Source: Rhodovastum atsumiense (GTDB lineage Bacteria > Pseudomonadota > Alphaproteobacteria > Acetobacterales > Acetobacteraceae). From it: DNA of 64,000 nt. The first letter of the stretch is position 1; every line of letters begins with the position of its first letter. The DNA lies in assembly GCF_937425535.1 (NCBI RefSeq), contig NZ_OW485601.1:4013501-4077500 (forward strand). The letters are read 5' to 3'. Position numbers and translations under genes: made by a program. Shown in pieces: positions 3,230-27,299 of the stretch. Below the pieces are notes generated by a model. The model did not search any database, was not told the origin of the DNA, and worked only from the letters and a program-made list of their open reading frames with translations.

Positions 3230-6200
3230 GCCTGCACCATGATCTTCGCTGAAACCGGCAGGCACATGTAGCAGTGCAGCCCATCCGTGGTGAAGTCCAT
3301 CCGCACCTCGCCGCCCAGTTCCGCGGGCATGCCGCGTTCGATCAGGCGGGTGCCGAAGCCGTGCCGCCGGGGCGGGCCGGCCAGCCCCGGCCCACCTGAT
3401 TCGCACCAGTCAATGACGACGTCCGCGGAGTCGCCCTCGCGCTCGATCCGCCACGCTATCTGCACTTCTCCCCCGGCGACCGACAGCGACCCATACTTTG
3501 CGGCGTTGGTGACCAGCTCGTGGAAGGTCATGGCCAGCGTCACCGACGCGGTCGGGCCCAGCGTGACCGGTGGCCCTTCCACCCGGACCCGTCGTGTCCC
3601 CGCCGCATCGCCCGCATAGGGCGCCAGCGTGCGGGTGACCACGTCGGCGAGCGAGGCGCCGTCCCACGATGCCGCCGTCAGCAATTCGTGCACCCGCGCC
3701 AGGGCCATGATGCGGCCGACGACATCTTCCATGAACGCGGCCGGATCGGGCGCGCTCCGCCGTGTCTGCGCCACGATCGACTGGACGGTGGCCAGCGTAT
3801 TCTTGACCCGGTGGTTCAGCTCGGCGAGCAGCAGCCGCAGCCGTTCCTCGTCCCGCTTGCGCGCGGTGACGTCGAGCGAGACGCCGATCAGGCGCAGCGG
3901 CACGCCTCCCGGCCCGTAGATCGCGTGCCCCCGGACCTGCAGCCACCTGATGGCGCCGTCGGGGGCAATCACCCGATATTCGATGTCCAGCGCCGAATCG
4001 TTGCCCACCGCGTCTTCCCGCGCCGCCGCGGCGCGGGCCCGGTCGTCGGGGTGGAGGTGCCGGACGATATCGGCCCGCGTCTCCACCTGGTCCTGCGGGC
4101 CAAGGCAGAAATGCTCGCGGCAGATCGGCGAGAGGGTGAAGCCGTCCGTTGCCAGGTCCAGTTCCCAGCTTCCCATGCCACCTGCCCGCATCGCCAGCTC
4201 CAGGCGCTGCTCGCTTTCGCGCAGCGCCGCGCGCCCGCGTTCGGCGGCAAGCTCGGCGCGGAGGTCGCGTTCGCGCTCGGCCGCCTCGCGGCGATGGCGC
4301 GCCAGCGTCACCGCCGCGTCGATGCGCGCGCGTAGCTCCCGCGCGCTGAACGGCTTGACCAGGTAGTCATCGGCGCTGGCGGACAGGCCCTCCACCCGCG
4401 CTTCCTCGCCCGCCCGCGCCGAGAGCAGGATCACCAGCAGCCCCTCCATGGCGGGGTCGGCGCGCACGGTCCGCAGCAGCGCGAAGCCGTCCATCACCGG
4501 CATCATGACGTCGCTCAGCAGCAGGTCCGGCAGCGGGCCGCGCCGCAGCGCAGCGAGGGCGGCGGCGCCGTCGCACACCGTCTCCACCGCGTAGCCGCCC
4601 TGCCGCAGGATCTGCGCCACATAGGCGCGGACATCGCTGTTGTCGTCGGCCAGCAGGATGCGGGGGCCTCCCGCGACCGCGTCCGGCGCCTCTGCCACCG
4701 GGCAGGCCGGGGCCGGCGCGGCGTCGTCGGGCAGCCAGCGCAGGGCCTCTTCCACATAGGCGCTGGCGCGCACGGCGGTGGAGGCCAGGACGCGCTCGCC
4801 CCGGATGCGGTCCGGGGGCAGGTGGGCGGTGCCGAAGGGCACGGTGACGGTGAAGGTCGTGCCGTGCCCCGGCGTGCTGGTGACCCCGATTTTCCCGCCG
4901 TGCAGGCGCACCAGTTCCTCGACCAGGGCGAGGCCGATGCCGCTGCCTTCCTGGGTGCGGCCGCGCTGGCCCTCGATGCGGTGGAAGCGTTCGAACAGCC
5001 GCGGCAGCTCCTCGGCGGCGATGCCGACGCCGCTGTCGCGCACGACCAGTTCCGCCACGGCGCCGGCGTTGCGCAGCGACACGGCGATGCCGCCGTCCAG
5101 CGTGTACTTGAAGGCGTTGGACAGCAGGTTGAGGACGATCTTCTCCCACATCTCCCGGTCCACGTGCACCGGCGCGCCGAGCGGCGGGCAGTCGGCCCGC
5201 AGGTCGAGGCCGGCGCGCTCGCAGGCGGAGCGGAAATTGCTGGCCAGGTCGATGGTCAGGCCGGCGAGGTCGGTGGGCTCGAAGCGTGCCTGCACCCGCC
5301 CGGCCTCGATGCGCGAGAAATCGAGCAGGGAATTGACCAGCCGCAGCAGGCGCAGCGCGTTGCGGTGGGCGACCTGCAGGCGCTCGCGCTGGGCGGGGGG
5401 CAGGGGGGCCGCGTCCGCCAGCGCATCCTCCACCGGGCCGAGCAGCAGGGTCAGCGGCGTGCGGAACTCGTGGCTGATGTTGGAGAAGAACGCGGTCTTG
5501 GCGCGGTCGATGACCGCCAGGGCCTCGGCCCGCCGGCGCTCCGCCTCGTAGGCCTGCGCATTGGCCAGCCCGTTCGCCAGCGCCGCCGCCACCAGCTCGT
5601 AGAAGCCGCGATAGGCGTCGTCGAAGGGCAGCCGCGGGCTGACCCCGGCGATCATCAGCGCCGCGGGCCGGCCCGTCTCCGACGGACCGATGGGCGCCAT
5701 GACGGCGCAGTCGGGCGGTTCCTCGTAAGGGCCGCAGGTGGTGTCGCGGAGCATCGCGGCGAGGCCGGTCACCGTCACCGGGGCATGCGACCCGCCGGGC
5801 GTATCCAGCGGGTAGGGCGAGGCCACGCCATGGGCGAGGACCGGCGGGCTCGCGGCGGTCCCGGTGGCGATGCCGGTCCGGGCGGCCAGGCGGTAGCCCG
5901 CGCCGGCATTGCCCCCGCTTTCGTCGGATTGCCCGCTTTCCTCGAATTGGTAGAGCAGCACGAAAGGCAGATCGAAGGTGTTTTCCGTCAGGGTCGCTGC
6001 CGCCTGCGCGAACACCTCGGCGGGCGTCTTGGCCCTGGCGAGGCGGCCGTTGAGGTCGCGCACGGCGCGGGTCCGCCGCTCCAGCAGCATCGACCGCGTG
6101 GTTTCCGTCACCGGATGGAACAGGCCGCCGATCCCGCCGCTCTCGTCGCGGATCGGGCTGAAGCTGAAGGTGAAGAAGGTTTCTTCAAGATAGCCGTAGC

Positions 6201-6678
6201 GGTCGATGAAGATCCTCTGGTTCTCGAGAAAGACGCTTTGCCCGGCCAGTGCCGTCTCGAAGGCCGCCCCGATGACCGGCCAGGCGGAGGCCCAGCATTC
6301 CCTGAAATCCATGCCCATCGAATGCGGATGCTTGGCGCCGCAGATCGGCCAGTAGCCATCGTTGTAGATCTGGACGTGCTGGGGGCCCCAGGTCATGGAA
6401 ATCGGAAAGGTTGACGCGAGGCACAGGCTGACGGCGGTGCGCAGGCTTTGCGGCCAATCGACGATCGGACCGAGCGGGGTCGCCGACCAGTCCTTCGCGC
6501 GGATCAGCTCCGCCATCTCGCCGCCACCCGCCAGGAAGTCGAGATTGGCCGCGCGGTCGGGCCGCCGCGCCAGGGCGCAGCTCGTGGGATCGCGTCCGCA
6601 GGTGGGGGGCTGGTCGCTGTTCGCCGTTGTCGCCGATCGGCCCATCGGGCTGCCCTTCTCGCGGAATTCGCTCCTCAT
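3226..6678 (-). CDS. Double-kinase hybrid sensor: PAS-GAF-HisKA-HATPase-REC-PAS-HWE kinase
   Basis: An 1150-residue soluble sensor with no obvious membrane helix. Domains in order: a PAS-like sensor (about 55-195), a GAF-like region (205-375), a HisKA dimerisation helix with phospho-His 403 (FFSNISHEFRTPLT), a HATPase (506-616, N521 in LNLLSNAFKY), a receiver (673-790, D723 in LLSDVMMP, KPF at 775), a second PAS (830-940), and a second kinase of the HWE/HisKA_2 type with H956 (AELNHRVKNTLATVQ) and its own ATPase (TFHELVTNAAKYGSL). The first kinase probably feeds the internal receiver. The C-terminal HWE kinase probably phosphorylates the overlapping receiver protein at 2816-3229. Two kinases in one chain allow cross-talk between two inputs. 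The ligand is unknown. Confidence 0.9.
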   Translation of the reverse strand: MRSEFREKGSPMGRSATTANSDQPPTCGRDPTSCALARRPDRAANLDFLAGGGEMAELIRAKDWSATPLGPIVDWPQSLRTAVSLCLASTFPISMTWGPQHVQIYNDGYWPICGAKHPHSMGMDFRECWASAWPVIGAAFETALAGQSVFLENQRIFIDRYGYLEETFFTFSFSPIRDESGGIGGLFHPVTETTRSMLLERRTRAVRDLNGRLARAKTPAEVFAQAAATLTENTFDLPFVLLYQFEESGQSDESGGNAGAGYRLAARTGIATGTAASPPVLAHGVASPYPLDTPGGSHAPVTVTGLAAMLRDTTCGPYEEPPDCAVMAPIGPSETGRPAALMIAGVSPRLPFDDAYRGFYELVAAALANGLANAQAYEAERRRAEALAVIDRAKTAFFSNISHEFRTPLTLLLGPVEDALADAAPLPPAQRERLQVAHRNALRLLRLVNSLLDFSRIEAGRVQARFEPTDLAGLTIDLASNFRSACERAGLDLRADCPPLGAPVHVDREMWEKIVLNLLSNAFKYTLDGGIAVSLRNAGAVAELVVRDSGVGIAAEELPRLFERFHRIEGQRGRTQEGSGIGLALVEELVRLHGGKIGVTSTPGHGTTFTVTVPFGTAHLPPDRIRGERVLASTAVRASAYVEEALRWLPDDAAPAPACPVAEAPDAVAGGPRILLADDNSDVRAYVAQILRQGGYAVETVCDGAAALAALRRGPLPDLLLSDVMMPVMDGFALLRTVRADPAMEGLLVILLSARAGEEARVEGLSASADDYLVKPFSARELRARIDAAVTLARHRREAAERERDLRAELAAERGRAALRESEQRLELAMRAGGMGSWELDLATDGFTLSPICREHFCLGPQDQVETRADIVRHLHPDDRARAAAAREDAVGNDSALDIEYRVIAPDGAIRWLQVRGHAIYGPGGVPLRLIGVSLDVTARKRDEERLRLLLAELNHRVKNTLATVQSIVAQTRRSAPDPAAFMEDVVGRIMALARVHELLTAASWDGASLADVVTRTLAPYAGDAAGTRRVRVEGPPVTLGPTASVTLAMTFHELVTNAAKYGSLSVAGGEVQIAWRIEREGDSADVVIDWCESGGPGLAGPPRRHGFGTRLIERGMPAELGGEVRMDFTTDGLHCYMCLPVSAKIMVQA

Positions 6679-6730
6679 GCCCGCCCGCGGCGATCCGGAT
6701 CATTTCCAGGGGCGTGAATCAATATTTTGA

Positions 6731-6754
6731 AATCGCAGACAATAATATGCGATT
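6731..6754. promoter_or_regulatory. Inverted repeat in the HK/metal-receptor intergenic region
   Basis: A perfect 7-bp inverted repeat, AATCGCA and TGCGATT, is separated by 10 bp inside an AT-rich stretch that stands out against the GC-rich surroundings. It lies in the roughly 400-bp gap between the divergent hybrid kinase (start 6678) and the DUF2946/TonB-receptor operon. A regulator binding site is plausible but the regulator is unknown. I see no gene in the rest of 6679-7062. Confidence 0.35.
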
Positions 6755-7125
6755 ATTTGTGAGATTGGTAGGAAAAGCCACTGCCGGTTTCGCCTGGGTT
6801 GCGCTGCCGGCCGGGGCGCCCTGCTCCGCCCGGCCGGGTCGCAGGGGAGGGCGGCGGATTGGCCCGGCATCCTCCACGGTGGCGGCGGTTTTGGGTGGGT
6901 TTCACGATTTCTCGATTATGGCGGATGCGATCCGGGGGCCGTCGTTCGCGACCGGCCTCGCGGTCTCGGTGGTCCTTGCCTCCATGGGGTGGCGGCAGCG
7001 TGGCATTGCCGCCACAGGTTCGGCAATTCACGCGCGATCGACGCTGGTCGTGATGACTACGTTTGGTAACGGTATTATACGCCATCCGTGACCATTCCCC
7101 GTCGCCTCTCATCGTCGCGCGCGCC

Positions 7126-7521
7126 GTGATCCGTTCCGCCTGGTTGCGCGGGCCGTGGTCATGGCCGGCGCGTGTCGCGTTGCTGGCGCTGCTGCTGATG
7201 CCGCTGCTGCGTGGCCTGCAGGCGCCGTCGGGCGAGGGGCTGACGGTGACGATCTGCACCGAGCATGGTGCGGAGGAAGTGGCGCTCGATGCCGACGGCG
7301 CGAAGCTGCCGCCCGCGGGGAAGGCGTGCTGGTTCTGCATCGCCCATCCCGGCTGGATGGTGGCCGGGGTGCCGGATCCGCCGCCGCCGCGCCGCGTGGT
7401 GCTGACGCAGTTGGCGGCGCCGATGCCGGCCGGCATCGTGGCGCGCCGGGATTTCCTGCTCGGGCGCCGCACCAGGGCGCCGCCCGGAGTGCCCGCTCAG
7501 GGCATGAATCCCCAGGGGTGA
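7126..7521 (+). CDS. DUF2946-like small exported protein
   Basis: About 131 residues from GTG 7126; the frame can also start at TTG 7063. A basic, hydrophobic N-terminus (SWPARVALLALLLMPLLRGL) looks like a signal or anchor. It is followed by VTICTEHGAEEVALDADG and a CWFCIAHPGW segment with paired cysteines and a histidine. This layout matches the DUF2946 type of short cysteine-containing proteins commonly encoded next to copper-type TonB-dependent receptors. The adjacent receptor supports that reading. A periplasmic role in metal binding is inferred only from the cysteines and the context. Confidence 0.6.
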   Translation: MIRSAWLRGPWSWPARVALLALLLMPLLRGLQAPSGEGLTVTICTEHGAEEVALDADGAKLPPAGKACWFCIAHPGWMVAGVPDPPPPRRVVLTQLAAPMPAGIVARRDFLLGRRTRAPPGVPAQGMNPQG

Positions 7522-7669
7522 TCCCGGCCGGACCCGGGCGCCGCCCCTGCGCGGGCATGCCCCGGTGCCGCGACCGATCCGGTGGTCCGACCAACGCGAC
7601 GCGGCGATGCCGCCGTCGCGGCGGCCGCCGGCGGCCCTTCGCTTCGCCTGCGATCCTGGAACGAATTTC

Positions 7670-9844
7670 GTGCGACCCAAGACACAGACCCATTCCGCGC
7701 GCCGGCCCTCCGGGCTTGGCCTGATGACGCTGGCCTCCGCCGCCGCGCTCGCCGCCGGCGGCGCCCGGGCGCAAGCCCCGACCCCGCTTCCGGCCGTGCG
7801 CGTGCAGGCCGATGCCGAGCTGTCGCGGCCGGTGGACGCCTCCAGCCTTGGCGAGGCGGCGCTGGCCAATGGCCGTGCCGCCACCAGCGACACCGCGCGG
7901 CTGCTTGGCACGCTGCCGGGGGTGGCGCTGCAGACCGGCGGGGCGGTGTCCAGCCTGCCGGTGCTGCGCGGCCTCGCCGATGACCGGGTGCGCATCCTGA
8001 CCGATGGCATGACTGCCGCCTCGGCCTGCGCCAACCACATGAACCCGCCGCTGTCCTATGTCGATCCGACCAATGTGGGGCGGGCGACGGTGCTGCCGGG
8101 GGTGACGCCGGTCAGCCTGGGCGGCGACAGCATCGGCGGCACCATCCTGGTCGACACGCCGCCGCCGGCCTTCGCCACCGAAGCGGAAAGCCCACGCTGG
8201 GACGCCAGCGTTTCCACTTTCTACCGCAGCAACGGCGACAGCATCACCACCGCCGGCACGGTCGGGGCGGCGACGCAGCGGGTCAGCCTGGGCTATGCCG
8301 GGTCCTGGGCGCAGGGCCACGACTACGTGGACGGCAACGGCAACAAGGTGCTGTCGACCAACTACCAGACCGCCAACCACCAGGGCACGCTGGGCGTGCA
8401 GGGCGAGAACAGCCTGTTCGTGCTGAAGGGTGGGGTGCAGATCATGCCCTACCAGGGCTTCCCCAACCAGCGCATGGACCTGAAGGGCAACCACAGCAGC
8501 TACGTCAACGGCAGCTACACCCGTGACCTGGGCTGGGGGAAGGTCGACCTGCGGCTGTGGTGGCAGGATGTGCGCCACTACATGAACTTCCTGGCCGACA
8601 AGGGCGGCGACGCCACCGGCGGCATGCCGATGAAGACGCATGGCACCACGCTCGGCTACCGGGTGAAGCTGGACCTGCCGGTGGGCGAGCGCCACCTGCT
8701 GCGCGTCGGCAGCGACCTGGAGGCACTGCGGCTGAAGGATTGGTGGCCGCCGGTCGGCACCGGGATGATGAGCCCGAACACCTACCTCAACATCAACAAC
8801 GGCACGCGCACGCGCCTGGGCGTCTTCGGCGAATGGGAGGCACGCTGGACCGACGCCTGGAGCACGCTGCTGGGCGCGCGCATCGACACGGTGTGGATGG
8901 ATACCGGAACGGTGCAGCCGTACAGCTGGACCTCGATGATGTCGGCCGCCGACATCGCCGCGGCGAAGGTGTTCAACGCGCAGAACCGGGCGCGCACCGA
9001 CGTCAATCTCGACCTGACGGCGCTGACCCGCTACGAGGCGACCGAGACGCTGACCGGCGAGTTCGGCTATGCGCGCAAGACGCGCTCGCCCAACCTGTAC
9101 GAGCGCTATGCCTGGGGCGCGGGCAACATGGCGCAGAGCATGATCGGCTGGTTCGGCGACGTGAACTACTATCGCGGCAACATCGACCTGAAGCCGGAAG
9201 TGGCGCACACCGTCAGCGTCTCCGCGGTCTGGCACGACGCCGCGAAGGAATCGTGGGAGGCGCGGATCACGCCCTACTACACCTATGTCGACGACTTCAT
9301 CGGCGTGACCCGCGTGGGCAGCCTCGCGCAGGGCGGCACCACCATCGCCAAGCTGCAATTCGCCAATCGTGATGCGCAGATCTACGGTGTCGATGTGTCC
9401 GGCCGGGCGGTGCTGTGGCGGGGCCAGGATTATGGCACGGTAGGCGTGCAGGGCGTGATCGGCTGGCTGCAGGGCAACTACATCGATTCCGGCAAGAGCC
9501 TGTATCACATGATGCCGCTGAACGCGCAGGCGGCGCTGACGCACCAGCTCGGCGGCTGGACGAGCCGGGCGGAACTGCGGCTGGTGGCGCCGAAGGCGCT
9601 GGTGGACGGCGACCGCTACGAACCCTCCACGCCGGGTTTCGCGGTGATGAACCTGCGCACCAGCTATGAATGGCGCAACGTGCGGCTGGATTTCGCCATC
9701 GAGAACCTGCTGAACCAGCAATACTATGAACCGCTGGGCGGGGTGGACTATGCCGACTGGCGCGCCACCGGCCGGGTGGGCGAGCTGGGCAGCGTGCCGG
9801 CACCGGGGCGGACCTTCATCGCCGGGGTGACGTTCAGGCTGTGA
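7670..9844 (+). CDS. TonB-dependent outer-membrane receptor, OprC/NosA copper type
   Basis: About 724 residues from GTG 7670. That start is preferred because it gives a clean signal peptide ending AAGGARAQA; the frame stays open back to 7565. The plug domain carries LPGVALQTGG and LPVLRGLADDRVRILTDG. A SACANHMNPPLSY segment (Cys 120, His 123, Met 124) resembles the Cys/His/Met metal-binding motif of OprC/NosA copper receptors. The C-terminus is a beta-barrel ending in aromatic F-R-L, and blocks such as YARKTRSPNLYERY and FAIENLLNQQYYEPLGG are typical of the family. It ends in a GTGA overlap with the tonB-like gene. Copper is the probable substrate by family. No exbB/exbD is nearby. Confidence 0.8.
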   Translation: MRPKTQTHSARRPSGLGLMTLASAAALAAGGARAQAPTPLPAVRVQADAELSRPVDASSLGEAALANGRAATSDTARLLGTLPGVALQTGGAVSSLPVLRGLADDRVRILTDGMTAASACANHMNPPLSYVDPTNVGRATVLPGVTPVSLGGDSIGGTILVDTPPPAFATEAESPRWDASVSTFYRSNGDSITTAGTVGAATQRVSLGYAGSWAQGHDYVDGNGNKVLSTNYQTANHQGTLGVQGENSLFVLKGGVQIMPYQGFPNQRMDLKGNHSSYVNGSYTRDLGWGKVDLRLWWQDVRHYMNFLADKGGDATGGMPMKTHGTTLGYRVKLDLPVGERHLLRVGSDLEALRLKDWWPPVGTGMMSPNTYLNINNGTRTRLGVFGEWEARWTDAWSTLLGARIDTVWMDTGTVQPYSWTSMMSAADIAAAKVFNAQNRARTDVNLDLTALTRYEATETLTGEFGYARKTRSPNLYERYAWGAGNMAQSMIGWFGDVNYYRGNIDLKPEVAHTVSVSAVWHDAAKESWEARITPYYTYVDDFIGVTRVGSLAQGGTTIAKLQFANRDAQIYGVDVSGRAVLWRGQDYGTVGVQGVIGWLQGNYIDSGKSLYHMMPLNAQAALTHQLGGWTSRAELRLVAPKALVDGDRYEPSTPGFAVMNLRTSYEWRNVRLDFAIENLLNQQYYEPLGGVDYADWRATGRVGELGSVPAPGRTFIAGVTFRL

Positions 9845-19567: not shown

Positions 19568-20800
19568 TCAGCCGTCCGGCGTCGCGCCACCCGCCACCGC
19601 ATCCCAGTCGCCGGCCTTGTCCATCCCCGCGCGTGGCAGGCTCGCGCCGATGGTGAAATGGACCGGTCGCTCCGCCGCGGCGAAGCGTTGCCGGCACCAC
19701 GCATCGAGTTGCCCGGGCAGCAGGGCCGCATCAACCCCTTCCACCGGCACCACGAACGCCTTGAGGCGTGGCTCCGGCAGGGTGGTGTCCAGCCGCACCG
19801 CGCAATCCGCCACGGCGGGATGCGTGCGCAACTGCCCGGCGACCCGCGCTGGGTGGACGTTGACGCCGCCCACCTGCACGGCCTCGTCGCGCCGCCCCCG
19901 CAGCACCAGCCCGTCATCGGGCGTCCAGCTCACGTCATCGACGAGCGGCCAGGGGCGACCGGTCGCCCTCTCGACCAGGGCGGCCGCTCCGGCCGTTCGG
20001 TCGGCGCGCCAGCGCGGCAGCAGGCGGAACGGCGCGTCCGGGGCGGTGCGCCAGCCGATGCCGGCGGTTTCCGAACTGCCATAGACCTGCATCACCTCGG
20101 CGGCCCCGGCGGCCAGCAGCGCCGCGTGCAGATCCTCCGGCAACGGCGCGGTCGAGCTGACGATCCGCAATCCCGCCGGCAGCGCCGGCACCTCGGCGAG
20201 CAGACGTCGCAACGCGGTCGGGAATGCCACCACCAGGTCGTCGGCGTGCAGCGCCTGCCGCAACGGCCCCGGCGCCATGGCGCGGGCATCCAGCACCGGC
20301 CAGCCGGCCTGCTCCGGCAGCAGCACGGTGAAGAGGAAGCCGTAGATGTGATGCGACGGCACGGACTGGACGATACGGCGCCGGTCCGCAAAGGCCGCGT
20401 GCCAGTGCGCCGTTTCCGCCATCAACGTCGTCCAGGGCTGCGGACAGGATTTCGGCAGGCCGGTGCTGCCGGAGGTGAGGAAGGTCACGCCACCCGTGCC
20501 GGCCGCCAGTGCCGCGGCAACGATGTCCGCCCATTCCCCGAGCGTCTTCCGCTCCAGCAGCATTGCCTCGATGCCAGCCTCGTGCAGGCGAAACAGGCCG
20601 TTCACGGCCGCCGCCAGTGCCATCGTCTCCAGGCTGTCGAGGCCCAGCTCGGCGACGAAGTCGATTTGCCCGGGCCAGCCCGCCACCTGCTGCGCAGACA
20701 GGCCGCGCCGCGAGATCTGCCACAGCTCGGCCGCCAGCAGCGAGCGCAGCACGCGCAGGATGGCATGGCGCGGGAGCACGGGGGGCGCAGCTTCCGCCAT
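19568..20800 (-). CDS. pcl: 4-coumarate:CoA ligase-like enzyme, PYP-chromophore activation type
   Basis: A 410-residue adenylate-forming enzyme. ATG 20800 has a GGAG ribosome-binding site. It is shorter than standard acyl-CoA synthetases (about 540). An N-terminal stretch resembles an acyl carrier motif (FVAELGLDSLETMALA, Ser 56). The P-loop TFLTSGSTGLPK is at 106-117, the adenylation motif is QVYGSSETAGIGWR, the hinge is LRGRRDEAVQVGGVNVHP, and a late Lys lies in LPRAGMDKAGDW. Short ligases of this kind activate p-coumarate for attachment to photoactive yellow protein. Here the gene is directly divergent from two PYP genes, which is the main reason for the call. An acyl-ACP or other aryl ligase role remains possible. 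Confidence 0.75.
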   Translation of the reverse strand: MAEAAPPVLPRHAILRVLRSLLAAELWQISRRGLSAQQVAGWPGQIDFVAELGLDSLETMALAAAVNGLFRLHEAGIEAMLLERKTLGEWADIVAAALAAGTGGVTFLTSGSTGLPKSCPQPWTTLMAETAHWHAAFADRRRIVQSVPSHHIYGFLFTVLLPEQAGWPVLDARAMAPGPLRQALHADDLVVAFPTALRRLLAEVPALPAGLRIVSSTAPLPEDLHAALLAAGAAEVMQVYGSSETAGIGWRTAPDAPFRLLPRWRADRTAGAAALVERATGRPWPLVDDVSWTPDDGLVLRGRRDEAVQVGGVNVHPARVAGQLRTHPAVADCAVRLDTTLPEPRLKAFVVPVEGVDAALLPGQLDAWCRQRFAAAERPVHFTIGASLPRAGMDKAGDWDAVAGGATPDG

Positions 20801-20840
20801 TGCCGGTTTCTCCAATAATTTTCGACAAAACCTGACCCTG

Positions 20841-20860
20841 AACGCACGGGGGTGTGCGTT
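20841..20860. promoter_or_regulatory. Palindrome in the ligase/PYP divergent promoter
   Basis: A perfect 7-bp inverted repeat, AACGCAC and GTGCGTT, with a 6-bp GC spacer is followed by the palindrome TTGCGCAA. It sits centrally in the 123-bp region between the divergent ligase and first PYP gene, so one regulator could control both directions. Confidence 0.5.
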
Positions 20861-20923
20861 AATTTTGCGCAACGATACTAGCAGAAGCCATCGATTCCAT
20901 GCATCTGGAGAAATCATTCGAAG

Positions 20924-21286
20924 ATGCCAAGTTTTGCTGATTCGCAATTGCACGACTGGTTGCACGCCAGTTCCACGCAGGCCATCGACGCCCTTCCGTT
21001 TGGCGTCGTCGGCATGGTGCCGGATGGCATCGTGGCCATCTACAACAAGGCGGAATCCAGCATCGCCGGGCTGACGCCGGATCGGGTCATCGGACGCCAT
21101 TTCTTTTCGTCGGTCGCGCCTTGCACCAACAATCACATGGTTGCGGGACGTTTTGATTCAGAGCCGGAAATCGATGACACCATTGATTACGTCTTCACCC
21201 TGCGCATGCGCAGCACGCCGGTGCGGCTGCGCCTGTTGAAGCATCCTGGCTGCCAGTACATGTACCTGGCCGTGGAACGGCGCTAA
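20924..21286 (+). CDS. pyp: Photoactive yellow protein (first copy)
   Basis: A 120-residue single-PAS blue-light receptor. Aligned with Halorhodospira PYP, the chromophore cysteine is Cys 67 in FFSSVAPCTNN, including the preceding Pro. The phenolate partners Tyr 40 and Glu 44 are in AIYNKAESSIAG, and the gate Met 95 is in FTLRMRSTPVRL. PFGVVGMVPDG and VIGRHFF match the PAS core. Positions equal to Thr 50 and Arg 52 of Halorhodospira PYP are Ala and Leu, so spectrum and photocycle may differ. The protein would bind p-coumarate as a thioester to Cys 67. The ATG has a GGAG 13 bases upstream. It heads an operon with a second PYP, a kinase and a receiver. Confidence 0.9.
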   Translation: MPSFADSQLHDWLHASSTQAIDALPFGVVGMVPDGIVAIYNKAESSIAGLTPDRVIGRHFFSSVAPCTNNHMVAGRFDSEPEIDDTIDYVFTLRMRSTPVRLRLLKHPGCQYMYLAVERR

Positions 21287-21323
21287 GGGCCGGAATGGCG
21301 ATTTTTCTGCCTTCGCCGCAGTC

Positions 21324-21710
21324 ATGGGGAGCAGACCACTGACATTCCCTCCCTTCGATGACGCACGGCTCCTGGACTGGCTGCAGGAGGCCGATGGCGA
21401 CAAGGCCGATCGATTGCCGTTCGGCATCATCGCCATGGACCATGACGGTTACGTCGAGCTGTACAATGCCTACGAGGCAAAGGCGTCCGGCTTCACCCGA
21501 GAGCGGGCCATCGGCCGGAACTTCTTCCGGACATTCGGGCGTTGCACGAACAACCCGCTGGTTGCGGGACGGCTGCTGGGGAATGCCGACATCGATGATA
21601 CCATCCATCATACCTTCACCTTCCGCATGAAGGTGGTCCCGGTGCGCCTGCGCCTGCTCAAGCGGCTGCCGCTGGCGCGGATGGCGCTGGCCGTGGACCA
21701 GGGGGCGTGA
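21324..21710 (+). CDS. pyp: Photoactive yellow protein (second, divergent copy)
   Basis: A 128-residue paralogue of the preceding gene, 37 bp downstream. The equivalents of the key residues are Tyr 47 and Glu 51 (ELYNAYEAKASG), the chromophore Cys 74 (FFRTFGRCTNN) and Met 102 (FTFRMKVVPVRLRLL). The Pro before the cysteine is replaced by Arg, and the Thr 50/Arg 52 positions are Ser and Phe. It therefore keeps the attachment site but has a changed pocket, suggesting a different absorption or cycle speed. Its stop overlaps the kinase start (ATGA-like). It may pair with the first PYP as a two-state or two-colour sensor (inference). Confidence 0.85.
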   Translation: MGSRPLTFPPFDDARLLDWLQEADGDKADRLPFGIIAMDHDGYVELYNAYEAKASGFTRERAIGRNFFRTFGRCTNNPLVAGRLLGNADIDDTIHHTFTFRMKVVPVRLRLLKRLPLARMALAVDQGA

Positions 21711-23392
21711 TGATCGATTGCGATCACTCATCCGACCTGGAGATCCTGACCGACTTCCTCTACGTCGTGCCGATCGGCCTGATGCGGTTCCGGCTGGATG
21801 GCGAGGTCGAGCTGGTCAACCCGATGGTGGCGCAGATGCTGATGCCGCTGCTGCCGGACGGCGACCTGTCGAATGTCTACGCGTCCCTGGGGCGCTTCGT
21901 GCCGAACCTGGACAGGCGGCTGAGCGAGTTTCCCTTCAACCACGGCATCGTCATGCACCAGGAGCGCTACCATGCGGTGATGGAGCCCCATCGCGTGGTG
22001 CTTTCGGTCACCATCCATCGCGTCGACCAGACCGCCTGGATCGCCGTCATCGAGGACGTGACGGCGCAGGCCGAGCAGGAGCGGCAGCTCGCCGAGACCA
22101 AGGCGGATCTTACCTGGCGTCGTTACTTCGATCCCTTGACCCGCCTGCCCAACCGCAGCCAGCTGGAACTCAGGCTGGCCGAGTCCGGCCGGCAGGAAGG
22201 CGAACGGCCGACGCTGGTCTTCATCGACATCGCCGGCGTGCGGGCCATCATGGAAATGAGGGGCTACACCGCGGGCGACCGGCTGCTGGTCGAAATCGCT
22301 GACCGGTTGCGCAAGGTCGCGGGCGAGTCCAATTTCGTCGCGCGTCTCGGCGGGACAAACTTCGTCATCCTGTGCCGATGGCTCGGCAACGAGGCGCTGA
22401 AGGACCTGGAATACAGGATCCAGGAGGCGATCGCCGCCCCGTTCCGGATCGAACACGAGAACTGCGTCGTCTCCGCCAACGTCGCCATCGCGCCGGTTGA
22501 CCAGCCGGCCGGCTTCGATCTGATGAAGGCTGCCGGAAAGGCCATGCACGAGCTGCGGCAGCGGCACGAGAGCGAGGAAAATGCCGAACGCCATCGGCAA
22601 AAGATGGAATCGCTCGGCCGCATGATGGGTGGGGTCGCCCATGAGATCAACAATATGCTGCAGCCTATCGGCGTGCTCGCCGAGGAGCTGATCATCAGCA
22701 ACCTGGTCAGGGAGGCGGGGCGTCAGCATCTCGATGTCATGCTGGAGTGCACGGAAAAGACGAAGGAGATCATCGCCGGCCTGCTCGCGTTCTCCAGGCC
22801 GGGGGTGCGCGAGGTCGAGGTGGTGGAGCCCGCCGAGGTGCTCGCTGACAGCCTGCGCCTCGCGCGCCAGGCCATTCCGGTCAACGTGTTCGTACGGACG
22901 GAGGTGGCCGGGGTCGTGCCGCGCATTGCCGTCAACCGCACGGCCTTCTCGCAGATCATCCTCAACCTGCTGACGAACGCAGCGGCCGCGATGGGGTACC
23001 GGGGCAGCGTGAGGGTCACGCTGAACGAGCATCTGGTTGTGGAATCCGGTCACGCCAGGATAGTGCGGCGGCCCCGCTACGTGCGCCTGCGAGTGATCGA
23101 CACCGGGTGCGGCATGAACCGGGAGACGCTTGACCGGGTCTTCGAGCCCTTCTTCACCACCAAGCCCATCGGCCAGGGGACCGGCCTCGGCCTGCCGGTC
23201 GTGTACGGCCTGGTGCAGGAAATGCGCGGGATCATCACGCTGCTGAGCGAGCCGGGGCAGGGAACGACGGTGACGATCCTGATCCCCGTTCACGAGGACG
23301 CCCCGGACCGCGTGGGGGCGGACAGGACGGCTCTTGCGGGCGTCACCGCGCGGCCCGTGTTGCAGGAAGCCATTTCCGATGATGGACAGTGA
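21707..23392 (+). CDS. Soluble sensor kinase: PAS - degenerate GGDEF - histidine kinase
   Basis: 561 residues with no membrane helix. Residues 10-120 look like a PAS or PYP-like sensor without the chromophore cysteine. Residues 138-285 are a GGDEF domain (FDPLTRLPNRSQLELRLAES, VFIDIAGVRAIMEMRGYTAG), but the signature is RLGGTNF instead of GG(D/E)EF, so it is unlikely to make c-di-GMP. The kinase core has phospho-His 312 (GGVAHEINNMLQPIGVLAEE), the N box LLTNAAAAMG, DTGCGM and GTGLGLP. It is translationally coupled to the second PYP and to the receiver gene, so it is the obvious candidate to read the PYP state. Direct contact is inference. Confidence 0.85.
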   Translation: MMIDCDHSSDLEILTDFLYVVPIGLMRFRLDGEVELVNPMVAQMLMPLLPDGDLSNVYASLGRFVPNLDRRLSEFPFNHGIVMHQERYHAVMEPHRVVLSVTIHRVDQTAWIAVIEDVTAQAEQERQLAETKADLTWRRYFDPLTRLPNRSQLELRLAESGRQEGERPTLVFIDIAGVRAIMEMRGYTAGDRLLVEIADRLRKVAGESNFVARLGGTNFVILCRWLGNEALKDLEYRIQEAIAAPFRIEHENCVVSANVAIAPVDQPAGFDLMKAAGKAMHELRQRHESEENAERHRQKMESLGRMMGGVAHEINNMLQPIGVLAEELIISNLVREAGRQHLDVMLECTEKTKEIIAGLLAFSRPGVREVEVVEPAEVLADSLRLARQAIPVNVFVRTEVAGVVPRIAVNRTAFSQIILNLLTNAAAAMGYRGSVRVTLNEHLVVESGHARIVRRPRYVRLRVIDTGCGMNRETLDRVFEPFFTTKPIGQGTGLGLPVVYGLVQEMRGIITLLSEPGQGTTVTILIPVHEDAPDRVGADRTALAGVTARPVLQEAISDDGQ

Positions 23393-23394
23393 GC

Positions 23395-23769
23395 ATGGCG
23401 TCGATTCTGCTGATTGAAGACGTGCCGGCAGTTCTGTTGTCGCTGCGGCTGATCCTGCAGGGCAAGGGCCATCAGGTCACCGACGCCACCAACGGTGCGG
23501 AGGCGGTCGAACTGCTGCGCGTCACCCGGTTCGACCTGGTCATCACCGACATCTGGATGGCGGGGGCCAGCGGGGTGGACGTGATCCGCGAAGGCAGGCG
23601 CCACTCGCCGCCCACGCGCTTCCTGGGGATCACCGGCGGCAACCCCAACGTGTCCGGGCAGGTGGAAGAGCCGCATCCCGACCGGTACGGCGCCGATTTG
23701 CTGCTGCGCAAACCCTTCAAGCGGGAGGCGCTGCTCTCGGCCGTCGAGCAGTTGCTGCGGCCATCGTGA
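23395..23769 (+). CDS. Single-domain response regulator of the PYP operon
   Basis: 124 residues, receiver domain only. SILLIEDVPAVLLSL holds the acidic pair, FDLVITDIWMAGASG the phospho-Asp, FLGITGG the switch Thr, and LLLRKPFKREAL the Lys. ATG 23395 follows a GGACAG; a GTG at 23389 overlapping the kinase stop is also possible. With no DNA-binding or enzyme output it probably acts by protein contact, as CheY does, or as a phosphorelay shuttle. It closes the PYP-PYP-kinase operon, and the efflux genes that follow are on the other strand. Confidence 0.85.
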   Translation: MASILLIEDVPAVLLSLRLILQGKGHQVTDATNGAEAVELLRVTRFDLVITDIWMAGASGVDVIREGRRHSPPTRFLGITGGNPNVSGQVEEPHPDRYGADLLLRKPFKREALLSAVEQLLRPS

Positions 23770-23805: not shown

Positions 23806-25377
23806 TCAATGCCCCATCGGGGCGGCCCCTCCCAGCCTGACCTTGCGCAGCGTCAGCGCCAGCGGCACCGCGGCGAGCGAGATCAGCGTGAGCACCCAGA
23901 ACACGTCCATGTAGGCAAGCAGCGAGACCTGGGCCTGCACCTGGCGGCCGATCCACGCCGCCGCCTGCTGCTGCGCCAGGCCCGGCGGGCTGCCCTGGGC
24001 GGTGAACCAGCCGACGAGGTGCTGCAGCGTGTCCTGGTAGGCCACCCCGGAGGGCACCACGTGCTCGACCAGCCGGCTCTGGTGGAACTGCTCGCGATGG
24101 GCGAGGATGTTGGACGCCAGCGAGATGCCAATCGAGCCGCCGGTGTTGCGCGCCGCGTTGATCAGCGCCGAGGCTTGGTCGGTCCTGGCCGGCGGGATGC
24201 CGTCGTAGGAGGCCGCGGTGATCGAGAGGAAGATCAGCGGCAGCCCCACGCCGGTCAGCATCCGTGCATGCGCGAGAAACCAGAAGTCGAGGCCCTCGTA
24301 CACGTTGGTCATCTGGTGCATCGAGGCTGCGATCACCAGGGCGCCCGCCATGATCATGAATTTGGGCTGGACCCTGGTCGAGAGCCGGGCGACGACGAAC
24401 ATCATCGCCATGGTCACCAGCCCGCCGGGCGAGAGCATCAGCCCGGCCCAGGTGGCGGTGTAGCCGAAATCCGCCTGCACCAGTTGCGGCAGGAACTGCG
24501 TGGTCGCCATCAGGATGGCGCCGGTCGCCAGCATCACCAGGAAGCAGGCCCCGAACTGCCGGCTTGCCACCATGCGCAGATCCACCGCGGGATTGCGGCG
24601 GGTCATCTCCCACGGGATCATCAGCACGAAGGCCAGTGCGCACACCGTCGCCGCCGCCACGATGAACGAGGAAGCGAACCAGTCATCCTCCAGCCCGCGG
24701 TCGAGCACCACCTCCAGCGCGCCGAGGAAGGTCGCGACCAGTGCGAAGCCGATCCAGTCGAACGCCTCGCCGCGCCGGTGCCGGCGTTGCTCCGCCTCGG
24801 CCGGGGCATCGTGCAGCAGTGATCCGATCAGCACGAAGGTCAGCGCGCCCACCGGGCCGTTGATGAGAAAGCACCAGTGCCAGGAAATGTTGTCGGACAG
24901 CCAGCCGCCGAGCGTCGGCCCGACCACGGGGGCGACCACCACCGCCACGCCGAACAGCGCGAAGCCCTGCCCACGCTTCTCCGGCGGAAAGGAATCCGCG
25001 AGGATCGACTGTGCCACCGGGACCATGCCGCCGCCGCCCAGCCCCTGCAGCACGCGCAGCAGCAGCAGGGCTTCCAGGTTCGGGGCGAAGCCGCACAACA
25101 CCGAGCTGATGGTAAAAAGCGCAAGGCAGATCAGGAAGAAGGTCTTGCGCCCGAGCCGCCGCGCCAGGAAGCTGCTGGCGGTGAGGATGATGGCGTTGGA
25201 AACGAGATAGGTCGTCACCACCCAGGACGCGTCGTCCTGGCTGACGCCCATGCCGCCGGCGATATAGGGCAGCGCGACATTGGCGATGGTGGTGTCCAGC
25301 ACTTCCATGAAGGACGCCAGCGCCACCAGCACCGCGATCAGCCATGGATTGGCGGCGTGGCGCGGCGCGGGGCTCAC
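23806..25377 (-). CDS. DHA2-family MFS drug exporter (EmrB-like)
   Basis: 523 residues with about 14 hydrophobic helices, the DHA2 layout. Signatures include the early motif VLDTTIANVALPYIAGGMGV, the loop motif ARRLGRKTFF, VLQGLGGGGMVPVAQSILAD with FPPEKRGQGFALFG, and APVVGPTLGGWLSD (antiporter motif C). It would export hydrophobic toxins by proton antiport together with the adaptor gene upstream, whose stop overlaps its start. The MarR gene further upstream is the likely repressor. Which compound is exported is unknown. Confidence 0.9.
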   Translation of the reverse strand: MSPAPRHAANPWLIAVLVALASFMEVLDTTIANVALPYIAGGMGVSQDDASWVVTTYLVSNAIILTASSFLARRLGRKTFFLICLALFTISSVLCGFAPNLEALLLLRVLQGLGGGGMVPVAQSILADSFPPEKRGQGFALFGVAVVVAPVVGPTLGGWLSDNISWHWCFLINGPVGALTFVLIGSLLHDAPAEAEQRRHRRGEAFDWIGFALVATFLGALEVVLDRGLEDDWFASSFIVAAATVCALAFVLMIPWEMTRRNPAVDLRMVASRQFGACFLVMLATGAILMATTQFLPQLVQADFGYTATWAGLMLSPGGLVTMAMMFVVARLSTRVQPKFMIMAGALVIAASMHQMTNVYEGLDFWFLAHARMLTGVGLPLIFLSITAASYDGIPPARTDQASALINAARNTGGSIGISLASNILAHREQFHQSRLVEHVVPSGVAYQDTLQHLVGWFTAQGSPPGLAQQQAAAWIGRQVQAQVSLLAYMDVFWVLTLISLAAVPLALTLRKVRLGGAAPMGH

Positions 25378-26537
25378 AGCCGGCTCCGCAGCCGCTCATA
25401 CAGCGAGGGCGTGGGATCGATCCGCACCTCTGGCACCACCGACATGCCGGGACCGAGTGCCACGTCGGTCGGCGGGTTGTCCATCACCACCTTCACCGGC
25501 ACGCGCTGGACGATCTTGACGTAGTTGCCGGTGGCGTTTTCCGCGGGCAGCAGCGAAAACGCGGTGCCGGAGCCGGACTGCACGCTCGCGACATGGCCGC
25601 TGATCCGGCGTTCCGGATAGGCATCGATGCGCAGGGTCACGGCCTGGCCGGGGCGCATGGCATCAAGCTGGGTTTCCTTGAAGTTCGCCGTGACCCAGAC
25701 CTCGTCCGGCACGAACATCGACAGGCTCGCCCCCGCCTGCGCGTACTGCCCGACGGCGGCGGAGAGATTGACCACGCGGCCGGGCTGGCTGGCGGTGACC
25801 GTCGTGTAGGACAGATTGAGCGTTGCCTGGTCGCGTTGTGCCGCCGCCTGCGCGAGGTTCGCCTCGGCGCTGGCCCGCTGCGCCTTGAGCGCGGCCAACT
25901 GGCGGGTGGCGGCGGCCACCGCCGCCTGGGCGGTCTTCAGCGCTGCCTGCTGCTGGCGAAGCTGGGAGGCGTATTGCTGCGCGCTCTGCACGGAGGCGGC
26001 GCCGTTATGGGCGGCGAGGTAGTCATAGCGTGCCGCCTGCTGCTGTGCGAACACCAGCCCGGCCTCGGTCTGTTCCAGTTGCGCCGCGGACTGCGCGACC
26101 TGGGCCTGCTGCACGGCGGTTTGCGCGTCGATATTGCGGATGCTGGCCTCGGCCGCGTCCACCTGTGCCTGCGCCTGGGCGAGCGCCACGCGATAATCGC
26201 GGTCATCGATCCGCGCGATCACCGCGCCGGCCGCGACGTGCTGGTTGTCGGTGACCGGAACGGCAGTGATGTAGCCTGCAACTTTCGGGGCAAGCGCGAA
26301 CTGCCGCGCGGCGATGAAGGCGTCATCGGTGGTTTCGAAGCGTCGCGCCGCATCCCAGTACAGATACCCGCCGGCCGCGAGCGGCACCAGGGCCAGCAGC
26401 GCGGCGCCGACCGCCAGCGCATGGCGGGGCATGCCACGGGGGGCGGCCGGGCGTGGCCGGGCCGCGCGGCGTGCCGGGTCCGGCCGGTCATTTGCGGGCA
26501 GGAGTGCGGGCTCCTGGTCGATCTCGTCGAGGGTCAT
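25374..26537 (-). CDS. HlyD/EmrA-type membrane fusion protein
   Basis: About 387 residues from ATG 26537. That start is chosen because the in-frame ATG at 26564 lies inside an operator repeat and has no ribosome-binding site. A single N-terminal helix (ALAVGAALLALVPLAAGGYL) is followed by a split lipoyl/barrel-sandwich domain (FALAPKVAGYITAVPVTDNQ, later QPGRVVNLSAAVGQYAQAG) around a long Ala/Gln-rich coiled coil (about 120-220). A beta-barrel domain follows. It bridges the EmrB-like exporter to an outer-membrane channel. It overlaps the exporter gene by four bases and shares a regulatory region with the divergent MarR gene. Confidence 0.9.
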   Translation of the reverse strand: MTLDEIDQEPALLPANDRPDPARRAARPRPAAPRGMPRHALAVGAALLALVPLAAGGYLYWDAARRFETTDDAFIAARQFALAPKVAGYITAVPVTDNQHVAAGAVIARIDDRDYRVALAQAQAQVDAAEASIRNIDAQTAVQQAQVAQSAAQLEQTEAGLVFAQQQAARYDYLAAHNGAASVQSAQQYASQLRQQQAALKTAQAAVAAATRQLAALKAQRASAEANLAQAAAQRDQATLNLSYTTVTASQPGRVVNLSAAVGQYAQAGASLSMFVPDEVWVTANFKETQLDAMRPGQAVTLRIDAYPERRISGHVASVQSGSGTAFSLLPAENATGNYVKIVQRVPVKVVMDNPPTDVALGPGMSVVPEVRIDPTPSLYERLRSRL

Positions 26538-26550
26538 GGGGCGCCCTGAT

Positions 26551-26690
26551 TTGTTAGGCTCCATACAGAATAAGTTAGGCGCCTAACAAAGTCAATGCCG
26601 GCGCAACGACGAGAGGGAGGCATGCCGGCCGCCGGCTGCCGAAACTGCAGGCCGGTATTGACGGCATTATTGTTAGGGGCCATACAAAAT
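26551..26690. promoter_or_regulatory. MarR operators between efflux pair and marR
   Basis: The region has two near-identical 21-bp sites: TTGTTAGG(C/G)(T/G)CCATACA with a shared AAT end, at 26551-26571 and 26670-26690. Between them lies a perfect 14-bp palindrome GTTAGGCGCCTAAC at 26574-26587. The sites flank both divergent promoters, as expected for a MarR dimer repressing its own gene and the efflux operon. Confidence 0.7.
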
Positions 26691-26720
26691 GGTTATTGCC
26701 GTTTGGAACGATTGCAGGCC

Positions 26721-27299
26721 ATGAAGTCGCATATCCCGCACCAGCTTCCCCCGGAACCGCCGCCCGCGGTCATGGCGGCCATCCGCGAGCGCATCCCGGC
26801 TTCGCTCGTGGAGGTGCTCGGGTTGGTCTTCGCATTGCGCACCACCGCCCGGCAGGTGGACAATCTGCTCACCGACTGGATGGCCGGCACGGCCGGCTCG
26901 ACGTCGCGCTTCCAGATCATGGCCCTGCTGTGGGCCGCCAAGGGGAGGGCCGTTCCCCACAAGGAAATCGTCGCGACCCTGGAGGTGACCCGTGCCACGG
27001 TTTCCGGACTGATGGCGGGGCTGGAACGCGACGGGCTCGTGAAGTCGGCCGTTGCCCGCGACGACCGGCGGAACCTGCTGGCGACGTTGACCGCGAAGGG
27101 CCGTGCGATCTTCGAAAAGGCGTTTGAAACTAACCTCGCCCGGATGAGTGCGATCTTCGCATCGTTTCCCCCTGATGAGCTGGTGAGCGCCACGGAGCAT
27201 CTGCAGCGCATCCGCCAGGTCTTCGCCAGCGCGAACCTGAAAGAGTCGGAAACGGATCGCCCGGCCAGACGGCGGGGGAGCGGTCAGGGCACGACATGA
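26721..27299 (+). CDS. MarR family repressor of the efflux pair
   Basis: 192 residues from ATG 26721 (the frame is open from 26595). The winged-helix core is typical: RFQIMALLWAAKGRAVPHKE, IVATLEVTRATVSGLMAGLE, the wing VARDDRRNLLATLTAKGRAI. Helices for dimerisation lie on each side. It is divergent from the EmrAB-like pair, with palindromic and repeated sites between them, so it most likely represses both units until a toxic ligand binds. The basic C-terminal tail (RPARRRGSGQGTT) is not part of the family fold. Confidence 0.85.
   Translation: MKSHIPHQLPPEPPPAVMAAIRERIPASLVEVLGLVFALRTTARQVDNLLTDWMAGTAGSTSRFQIMALLWAAKGRAVPHKEIVATLEVTRATVSGLMAGLERDGLVKSAVARDDRRNLLATLTAKGRAIFEKAFETNLARMSAIFASFPPDELVSATEHLQRIRQVFASANLKESETDRPARRRGSGQGTT

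Follow-up and report, generated by a model that had tools for sequence, protein, structure and literature searches.

How does a photoactive yellow protein (PYP) that stands free of any output domain pass its light signal on? Signal transmission by free PYPs has been named an important gap (PMC12826048), and the question arises for a group of genes in the chromosome of Rhodovastum atsumiense. The stretch analyzed here (the window) comprises 64,000 nucleotides (nt), positions 4013501-4077500 of contig C1. It encodes a p-coumarate ligase of PYP type (pCL), divergent from two consecutive PYP genes that are followed by genes for a histidine kinase and a single-domain receiver. A first-pass annotation of this DNA had proposed that arrangement, and all five genes lie where it put them (Table 1). 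We found that the first ~125 residues of the kinase, a region unnamed in Pfam and NCBIfam that we call the companion domain, recur directly behind PYP genes elsewhere, in front of varied outputs. In our reading, the operon is the clade C PYP module in a two-component form, and the PYPs would dock on the companion domain of the kinase; we give this reading a probability of about 0.55.

The companion domain and its association with PYP

The same 299 genomes of the host's family were searched with the first 127 residues of the kinase for the companion and with PYP1 for PYP. The PYP1 query returned 54 rows in 30 genomes and the companion query 20 places in 15 genomes; at 17 of the 20 the gene immediately before the companion is a PYP gene. 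Every one of the 18 PYP rows scoring at least 87.7 bits lies at a companion place, and these rows include both PYPs of the window and one PYP fragment in a relative, G271. The remaining 36 rows are the second G271 fragment and 35 rows, of at most 74.2 bits, without a companion. A search with the front of the kinase led to six further companion places (five by match, in genomes outside the earlier sample, the sixth on fetching), all behind a PYP gene.

Among 72,556 plasmid records, PYP was found in 13 and the companion in 11, all 11 also carrying PYP; this search lists one place per record, and a second place in Caballeronia SBC2 falls outside the count. PYP is directly upstream in the ten companion plasmids that were fetched and adjacent by match coordinates in the eleventh. 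The genera named for the companion plasmids are Caballeronia, Rhizobium, Polymorphobacter, Methylobacterium, Indioceanicola and Sphingomonas (six), plus the host of the window. PYP plasmids without a companion come from Comamonadaceae OTU4NAUVB1, whose PYP belongs to the same clade, and Niveispirillum. Across 398 genomes of the phylum, a PYP profile and a companion profile matched five genomes each, with both present only in the host and in G591, where they are adjacent; at most 11 candidates were scored per genome, and misses are possible. The other three PYP matches sit in frames of 900-910 amino acids (aa).

Of the 39 companion domains at fetched loci, 34 begin 26-74 nt downstream of a PYP domain that shares their strand. 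PYP-companion pairs occur twice in one cluster at L121 and L187; two PYPs ahead of one companion were seen in the window only, among the loci examined. The smallest pair consists of a PYP and a lone 137-aa companion protein (L133, 7841-8254), with 4-8 nt of overlap between their genes.

What follows the companion varies. Most of the 39 fetched companion proteins continue into PAS and GGDEF domains with an intact motif, others carry GGDEF-EAL (L129, L131 and the second copies at L143 and L184) or EAL (L127, L140, L141), and a kinase output was found in the window and G271 only; these outputs were assigned in part by Pfam scan and in part by motif alone. At L143 and L184 the second companion protein, with GGDEF-EAL, comes right after the first, and one PYP may there serve both a cyclase and a phosphodiesterase. 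Five companion-PAS proteins (Table 1) have in common a C-terminal stretch of ~100 residues with the pattern G-x-x-x-x-F-I-V-W-F, which matches no family and may be either a new output or what is left of a cyclase domain.

The companion itself is PAS-like at best. Of the 12 PDB sequences matched at E<=1, eight are chains of histidine kinases, three belong to APC5 and one is TyrR; we take the matched portions to be PAS domains. Comparison of profiles with hhalign gave E 2e-4 and probability 46 for companion against PYP, versus E 0.02 and probability 2 for companion against the regular PAS domain that comes second in these proteins. The domain has no invariant Cys or His. An alignment-free structure model reached a mean predicted local distance difference test score (pLDDT) of 47, too low to use.

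A tree of 50 PYP rows splits a clade of 35 from the 15 others with support 100/100. The 15 comprise two reference chains, four plasmid PYPs and nine of the 35 low-scoring family rows, the other 26 of which were left out. A companion gene follows 34 rows of the clade (PYP1 counted across PYP2) and none of the 15 others; without the six rows that had been fetched through a companion match, the clade count is 28 of 29. None of the 35 rows has kept Phe92, Leu replaces Phe96 in 28 and Met100 is found in 33, a pattern by which the clade fits clade C of PMC9664959.

The companion of the kinase groups with that of G271 (99/96) and next with those of L119 and L185 (98/96), and the rows nearest to PYP1 are again those of L185 and L119. 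Since PYP1 and the kinase companion both place near these two loci, we conclude that they were probably inherited together. PYP1 is 71% identical to the L185 protein and matches PYP2 at 57 of 120 aligned residues; we rejected the idea that PYP2 is a young copy of PYP1, which is closer to L185 than to PYP2. With moderate confidence, PYP2 can be regarded as a later-added, diverged sensor. Over 33 pairs, PYP and companion distances correlate at r 0.66 with PYP2 as the window row and at 0.65 with PYP1, a value reached in 0 of 1000 permutations; for the window row alone, the correlation is 0.59 with PYP1 and 0.51 with PYP2. This correlation shows joint travel, not contact.

The operon and its predicted light sensors

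The starts of pCL and PYP1 are 123 nt apart; for pCL we chose the ATG at 20800, and the open frame continues further upstream. The first-pass annotation had taken the PYPs to be translationally coupled to the kinase and then the receiver. Overlaps of 4 nt at the PYP2/kinase and kinase/receiver joints suggest coupling there, and the gap of 37 nt between PYP1 and PYP2 does not. A promoter scan found none in the gap between pCL and PYP1 and one weak site within the kinase gene. The order PYP-PYP-kinase-receiver, sought in relatives as had been advised, was present at no other locus examined.

Table 1. Coordinates of the operon features in the window and of a companion protein type at other loci
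Feature	Location	Strand	Details
pCL, PYP-type p-coumarate ligase	19568..20800	-	410 aa; TIGR02372 E 1.5e-96; best of 4 genome matches
pCL front domain, probably carrier-protein-like	20483..20773	-	Asp55-Ser56; Ser codon 20633-20635; direct score weak
PYP1 (predicted)	20924..21286	+	120 aa; Cys67 = Cys69 (H. halophila numbering), codon 21122-21124
PYP2 (predicted)	21324..21710	+	128 aa; Cys74 = Cys69, codon 21543-21545; FGRC replacing VAPC; His at 94
Soluble histidine kinase	21707..23392	+	561 aa
Kinase companion domain, PAS-like	21722..22093	+	recurs behind PYP genes elsewhere
GGDEF domain, degenerate	22124..22570	+	GGTNF at 22349-22363
HisKA	22613..22801	+	His312 codon 22640-22642 in HEINN
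HATPase_c	22940..23290	+	NLLTNA, DTGCGM, FEPFFTT, GTGLGL
Single-domain receiver	23389..23769	+	126 aa; Asp54 codon 23548-23550
Companion + PAS + shared C-terminal stretch	L121 588-1700
Companion + PAS + shared C-terminal stretch	L123 5833-6957	-
Companion + PAS + shared C-terminal stretch	L187 5025-6104	-
Companion + PAS + shared C-terminal stretch	L188 5169-6266
Companion + PAS + shared C-terminal stretch	L189 5364-6428	-

Both window proteins are predicted PYPs, which would bind p-coumarate and undergo a photocycle. They match TIGR02373 with E 2.5e-24 (PYP1, 85.7 bits) and E 4.3e-16 (PYP2, 59.1 bits), below the curated cut-off of 143 bits of a model that detects about 20% of PYP homologs (PMC9664959). 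In the sequence searches called for earlier, both had their best PDB match in the PYP portion of Ppr (1mzu), with E 1.1e-17 for PYP1 and 2.9e-13 for PYP2. Tyr42, Glu46 and Cys69 are retained in PYP1, PYP2 and a third PYP of the host. As had been noticed before, the two pockets differ: residues 67-68 are Gly-Arg in PYP2 rather than the Ala-Pro of PYP1, and His stands in place of Tyr94. Among the 35 rows of the clade, P occupies position 68 in 21, Q in 8, V in 3, I in 2 and R in PYP2 only; position 94 is Y in 31, F in 3 and H in PYP2 only.

The third host PYP (L135 7653-8069, minus strand; C1 2508658-2509014) lies ~5 kb from the pufLM reaction centre genes, two reaction centre genes being encoded in this genome. 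It has Asp at position 100 and Gly at 96 and overlaps a 677-aa frame matched by CckA-type kinases in NCBIfam (E 3.9e-34) and by a receiver only in Pfam. Multiple PYPs without a companion were seen at two further loci: a tandem of the other clade with a divergent PYP-type ligase at L137 of G207 (4732-5756, minus strand, and 6250-7467) and two divergent PYPs at L134 of G006 (6990-7878).

The kinase matches HATPase_c (84.7 bits) and GGDEF (77.0 bits), with HisKA at 24.1 bits, slightly below its cut-off of 26.9. Its phospho-accepting His is kept together with motifs that we take to be the N, G1, F and G2 boxes, and the catalytic motifs are intact. The highest Kyte-Doolittle mean over 19 residues is 1.27, compared with 2.42 for the neighboring pump of the major facilitator superfamily (MFS); since it has no strongly hydrophobic stretch of that length, the kinase fits the earlier description as soluble. 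Its front had been read as PAS plus degenerate GGDEF. The second half of that description stands, as the domain reads GGTNF where a diguanylate cyclase has GG(D/E)EF; the first domain is the PYP-linked companion and not an ordinary PAS domain. The single-domain receiver was also named correctly: it matches Response_reg (E 1.6e-17) and has the complete set of motifs, EDV with the acidic pair, TDIW with the Asp, ITGG with the Thr/Ser and RKPF with the Lys.

With kinase residues 1-287 as query against 397 family genomes, G271 was the one strong match listed (342.7 bits, 59%, covering both front domains). The PYP of this locus is split across two frames and has Arg at the Cys position. Its contig stops within the kinase gene, and for this reason a receiver cannot be seen there. 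Eight weaker listed matches that reach the companion region (29-35% identity) were set aside as ordinary PAS-GGDEF(-EAL) proteins: the companion profile gave them at most 11.7 bits, versus 103-153 for true companions, and the fetched loci showed no same-frame kinase core and no neighboring PYP above chance level. A whole-kinase scan of genome contigs kept 80 loci, mostly matches of the catalytic core, and was not used. The idea that the degenerate GGDEF is left over from a companion-type cyclase found no support; its best listed GGDEF matches are long proteins (G086:C21:190054 and G786:C45), and in the scanned companion cyclases another PAS domain precedes GGDEF.

Proposed signaling from PYP to the kinase and alternative readings

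The pair is constant while the outputs vary, and the best explanation of this is that free PYP docks on the companion. We infer a pathway in which pCL would activate p-coumarate, which would end up thioester-bound to the conserved Cys in each of the two PYPs, and the free PYPs would dock at the companion domain of the kinase. Blue light would alter PYP, and the docked pair would shift the companion domain. That shift may reach the HisKA/HATPase core by way of the degenerate GGDEF domain, which would serve as a spacer or relay. Phosphorylation of His312 would change, and the phosphate would pass to Asp54 of the receiver. The phosphorylated receiver presumably acts by binding some other protein. 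PYP1 would be the inherited partner and PYP2 a second input at the same docking site, with another color or recovery time.

Several observations weigh against docking. Three of the 20 family companion places (host C1 969832-970188, G235 and G156) have no adjoining PYP, the other three phylum companion matches, all weak (E 4.1e-8 to 1.5e-9), come without a PYP match, and one member of the PYP clade, L145, has no companion. The group that joins PYP1 to L185 and L119 is supported at only 94/88, PYP2 sits on its long branch together with L127 at only 95/71, and the matches that suggest a PAS nature of the companion are weak. The kinase form was found at two loci only, the window and G271, among the matches listed, and the G271 kinase may work without a light sensor, given its broken PYP. 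Adjacency could also reflect co-inheritance without contact.

The supply of chromophore is a further point on that side. The only PF00221 match in the host genome is a HutH within an apparent hut operon, flanked by frames that resemble urocanase and imidazolonepropionase; this search found no dedicated tyrosine ammonia lyase. The first-pass annotation had held that the lack of an ammonia lyase would speak against functional PYPs, and had called the locus a complete light-to-phosphorylation pathway. The latter is too strong in the light of this search. As to the former, the lyase found is a HutH, and PYP function is not refuted by a missing tyrosine ammonia lyase because such genes are reported in only 7 pyp operons (PMC12826048). 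An external source or a side activity would have to supply the p-coumarate.

A rival account is that the companion domain senses a ligand or redox state of its own and travels with PYP in a light or stress gene set, without contact. PAS-like domains often bind small molecules, the companions without an adjoining PYP count in its favor, and the distance correlation is expected from joint inheritance alone. Yet the pairing with PYP is kept over six output kinds (GGDEF, GGDEF-EAL, EAL, an unassigned end, none and kinase), the companion at L133 stands beside PYP without any output, and an invariant Cys or His is lacking. We consider this account unlikely.

The PYPs of the operon might also be shared, controlling in addition an orphan companion cyclase of the host, so that light would act on both phosphorylation and cyclic diguanylate (c-di-GMP). 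The companion at C1 969832-970188 belongs to such a protein (L139 5948-7315, minus strand; companion, PAS and GGDEF), 455 aa long with an intact GGEEF and no PYP match within the surrounding 14 kb. Its companion, however, groups with other relatives (87/80) and not with that of the kinase, and sharing seems to us improbable. Quite unlikely is a chromophore-free PYP2 with the role of obstructing the docking site or keeping the kinase complex assembled: its FGRC motif and His94 are unusual (R68 and H94 each unique in the clade) and its branch is long (1.08, compared with 0.35 for PYP1), but Tyr42, Glu46 and Cys69 are all there, and changes at 67-68 also occur in other clade members that have Cys69.

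The annotation knew of no described operon of tandem free PYPs, a kinase and a receiver, but PYP and kinase in one operon is already known: of 113 predicted pyp operons, 17 contain HisKA/HATPase proteins, the kinase lying preferentially upstream of pyp (PMC12826048), and clade A PYPs adjoin kinases (PMC9664959). In the window the kinase is instead downstream, coupled to the second PYP, and has a companion and a degenerate GGDEF domain; some of the 17 operons, as far as their published description goes, may be alike. The clade C PYPs found by GGDEF genes (PMC9664959) resemble the window in clade residues, in a PYP directly before the signaling protein and in a pCL nearby, and differ from its kinase and receiver output, degenerate GGDEF and two PYPs in a row; the accessible text of that paper gives no description of a common first domain among PYP partners. 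The window thus has the PYP clade and the companion of the clade C module, while a c-di-GMP output enzyme is absent, its place being taken by the GGTNF kinase. Ppr of Rhodospirillum centenum, a PYP-phytochrome-histidine kinase fusion, likewise feeds PYP input to a histidine kinase, but the window PYPs are free, there is no phytochrome, and the PYP of Ppr belongs to the other clade. A Leptothrix PYP encoded next to a cyclase has reportedly been studied by biophysical methods. We found no account of output exchange on a common first domain, of tandem PYPs before a kinase or of a carrier-like ligase front in open-licence full text without supplements.

By sitting behind PYP whatever the output enzyme, the companion becomes a concrete candidate for the contact point of PYP, and its recurrence suggests a partner of the PYPs that can be put to the test. 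In the window it is part of a kinase, and a phosphorylation assay could read the contact out. R. atsumiense G2-11, a member of the Acetobacteraceae with one 6.48 Mb chromosome and eight plasmids, has published methods for conjugation and deletion (PMC9938234). The host genome analyzed here has 7,423,543 bases in 9 contigs, with 6,482,810 in C1.

The ligase front and neighboring genes

That the divergent ligase is of PYP type, as first annotated, is borne out by TIGR02372, the family of PYP-type p-coumarate:coenzyme A (CoA) ligases. pCL reached 323.4 bits, a little short of the curated cut-off (334.7), with the next family at 69 bits, and the four matches in the host genome scored 323 bits versus 58, 49 and 49. 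Of 37 PYP- or companion-positive genomes, 21 yielded matches to the model, 28 in all: 16 were strong, at 245-347 bits, and 12 were weak, at 94-117 bits. The cut-off was passed in 4 of the 37, though the 16 matches are equally strong in kind. Members of this family are like pCL in length, register and neighborhood, and we saw no difference specific to the window. Among the plasmids, ligases of PYP type (E<=1e-20) were found in 10 records, all 10 with PYP.

The Pfam AMP-binding match in pCL starts at model position 169 of 384, and at 157-170 in eight more PYP-linked ligases. Ahead of this match lies a stretch of ~97 residues with an Asp-Ser pair in all 17 ligases of the fetched loci. The same site stands 52-79 residues ahead of the ATP loop in 16 of 16 strong matches, and within the 110 residues ahead of that loop in 0 of 12 weak ones. 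With seven ligases common to the sets of 16 and 17, 26 distinct PYP-type ligases carry the site. The pCL front is likely a carrier-like domain, and its presence in all 26 would make it a trait of the TIGR02372 family that has been overlooked.

A profile built from 12 of the 17 fetched-locus ligases (A4) gave 43 PDB matches at E<=1, each singly weak (best E 0.0036). All 43 have the Asp-Ser pair and are named acyl carrier proteins, NDUFAB1/SDAP1, which we take to be mitochondrial carrier proteins, or PigH. When hhalign compared the front with carrier domains of the host genome, 24 columns surrounding the site aligned at E 1.7e-4 (probability 49), compared with E 0.27 and 0.4 for controls. When ten host carrier stretches were scored with A4 against 2000 shuffled copies, the best real stretch reached 12.8 bits versus 9.1 for the best shuffled copy; the likeness is remote, as the nine other real stretches (7.7 to -0.8) overlap the shuffled scores. 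Pfam PP-binding gave 16.3 bits on the pCL front, below its cut-off of 20.8, and was unlisted at E<=1 for eight of eight other ligases. A structure model of the front (pLDDT 58) had no useful Foldseek match and was too low in confidence for a four-helix fold.

Use of a carrier domain in charging PYP is conjecture. Tentatively, and with considerable doubt, we suggest that PYP-type ligases load themselves, p-coumaroyl passing from the adenylate to a phosphopantetheine on Ser56 of their own front domain and from there to the PYP Cys, and that charged PYPs plug interchangeably into any companion protein, be it a kinase, a cyclase or a phosphodiesterase, as its light subunit. If so, free coumaroyl-CoA would not be the sole means of charging PYP, a carrier-protein route being another, and an active front would change the view of how PYP gets its chromophore; in published work pCL is treated as a CoA ligase (PMC12826048).

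Convergent to the PYP operon lie genes for an MFS pump and an HlyD-type protein (23806-26564, minus strand). They are followed by what we presume to be a possible MarR-type regulator (26595-27299, plus strand). Near a user of p-coumarate, these genes perhaps serve the export of aromatic acids.

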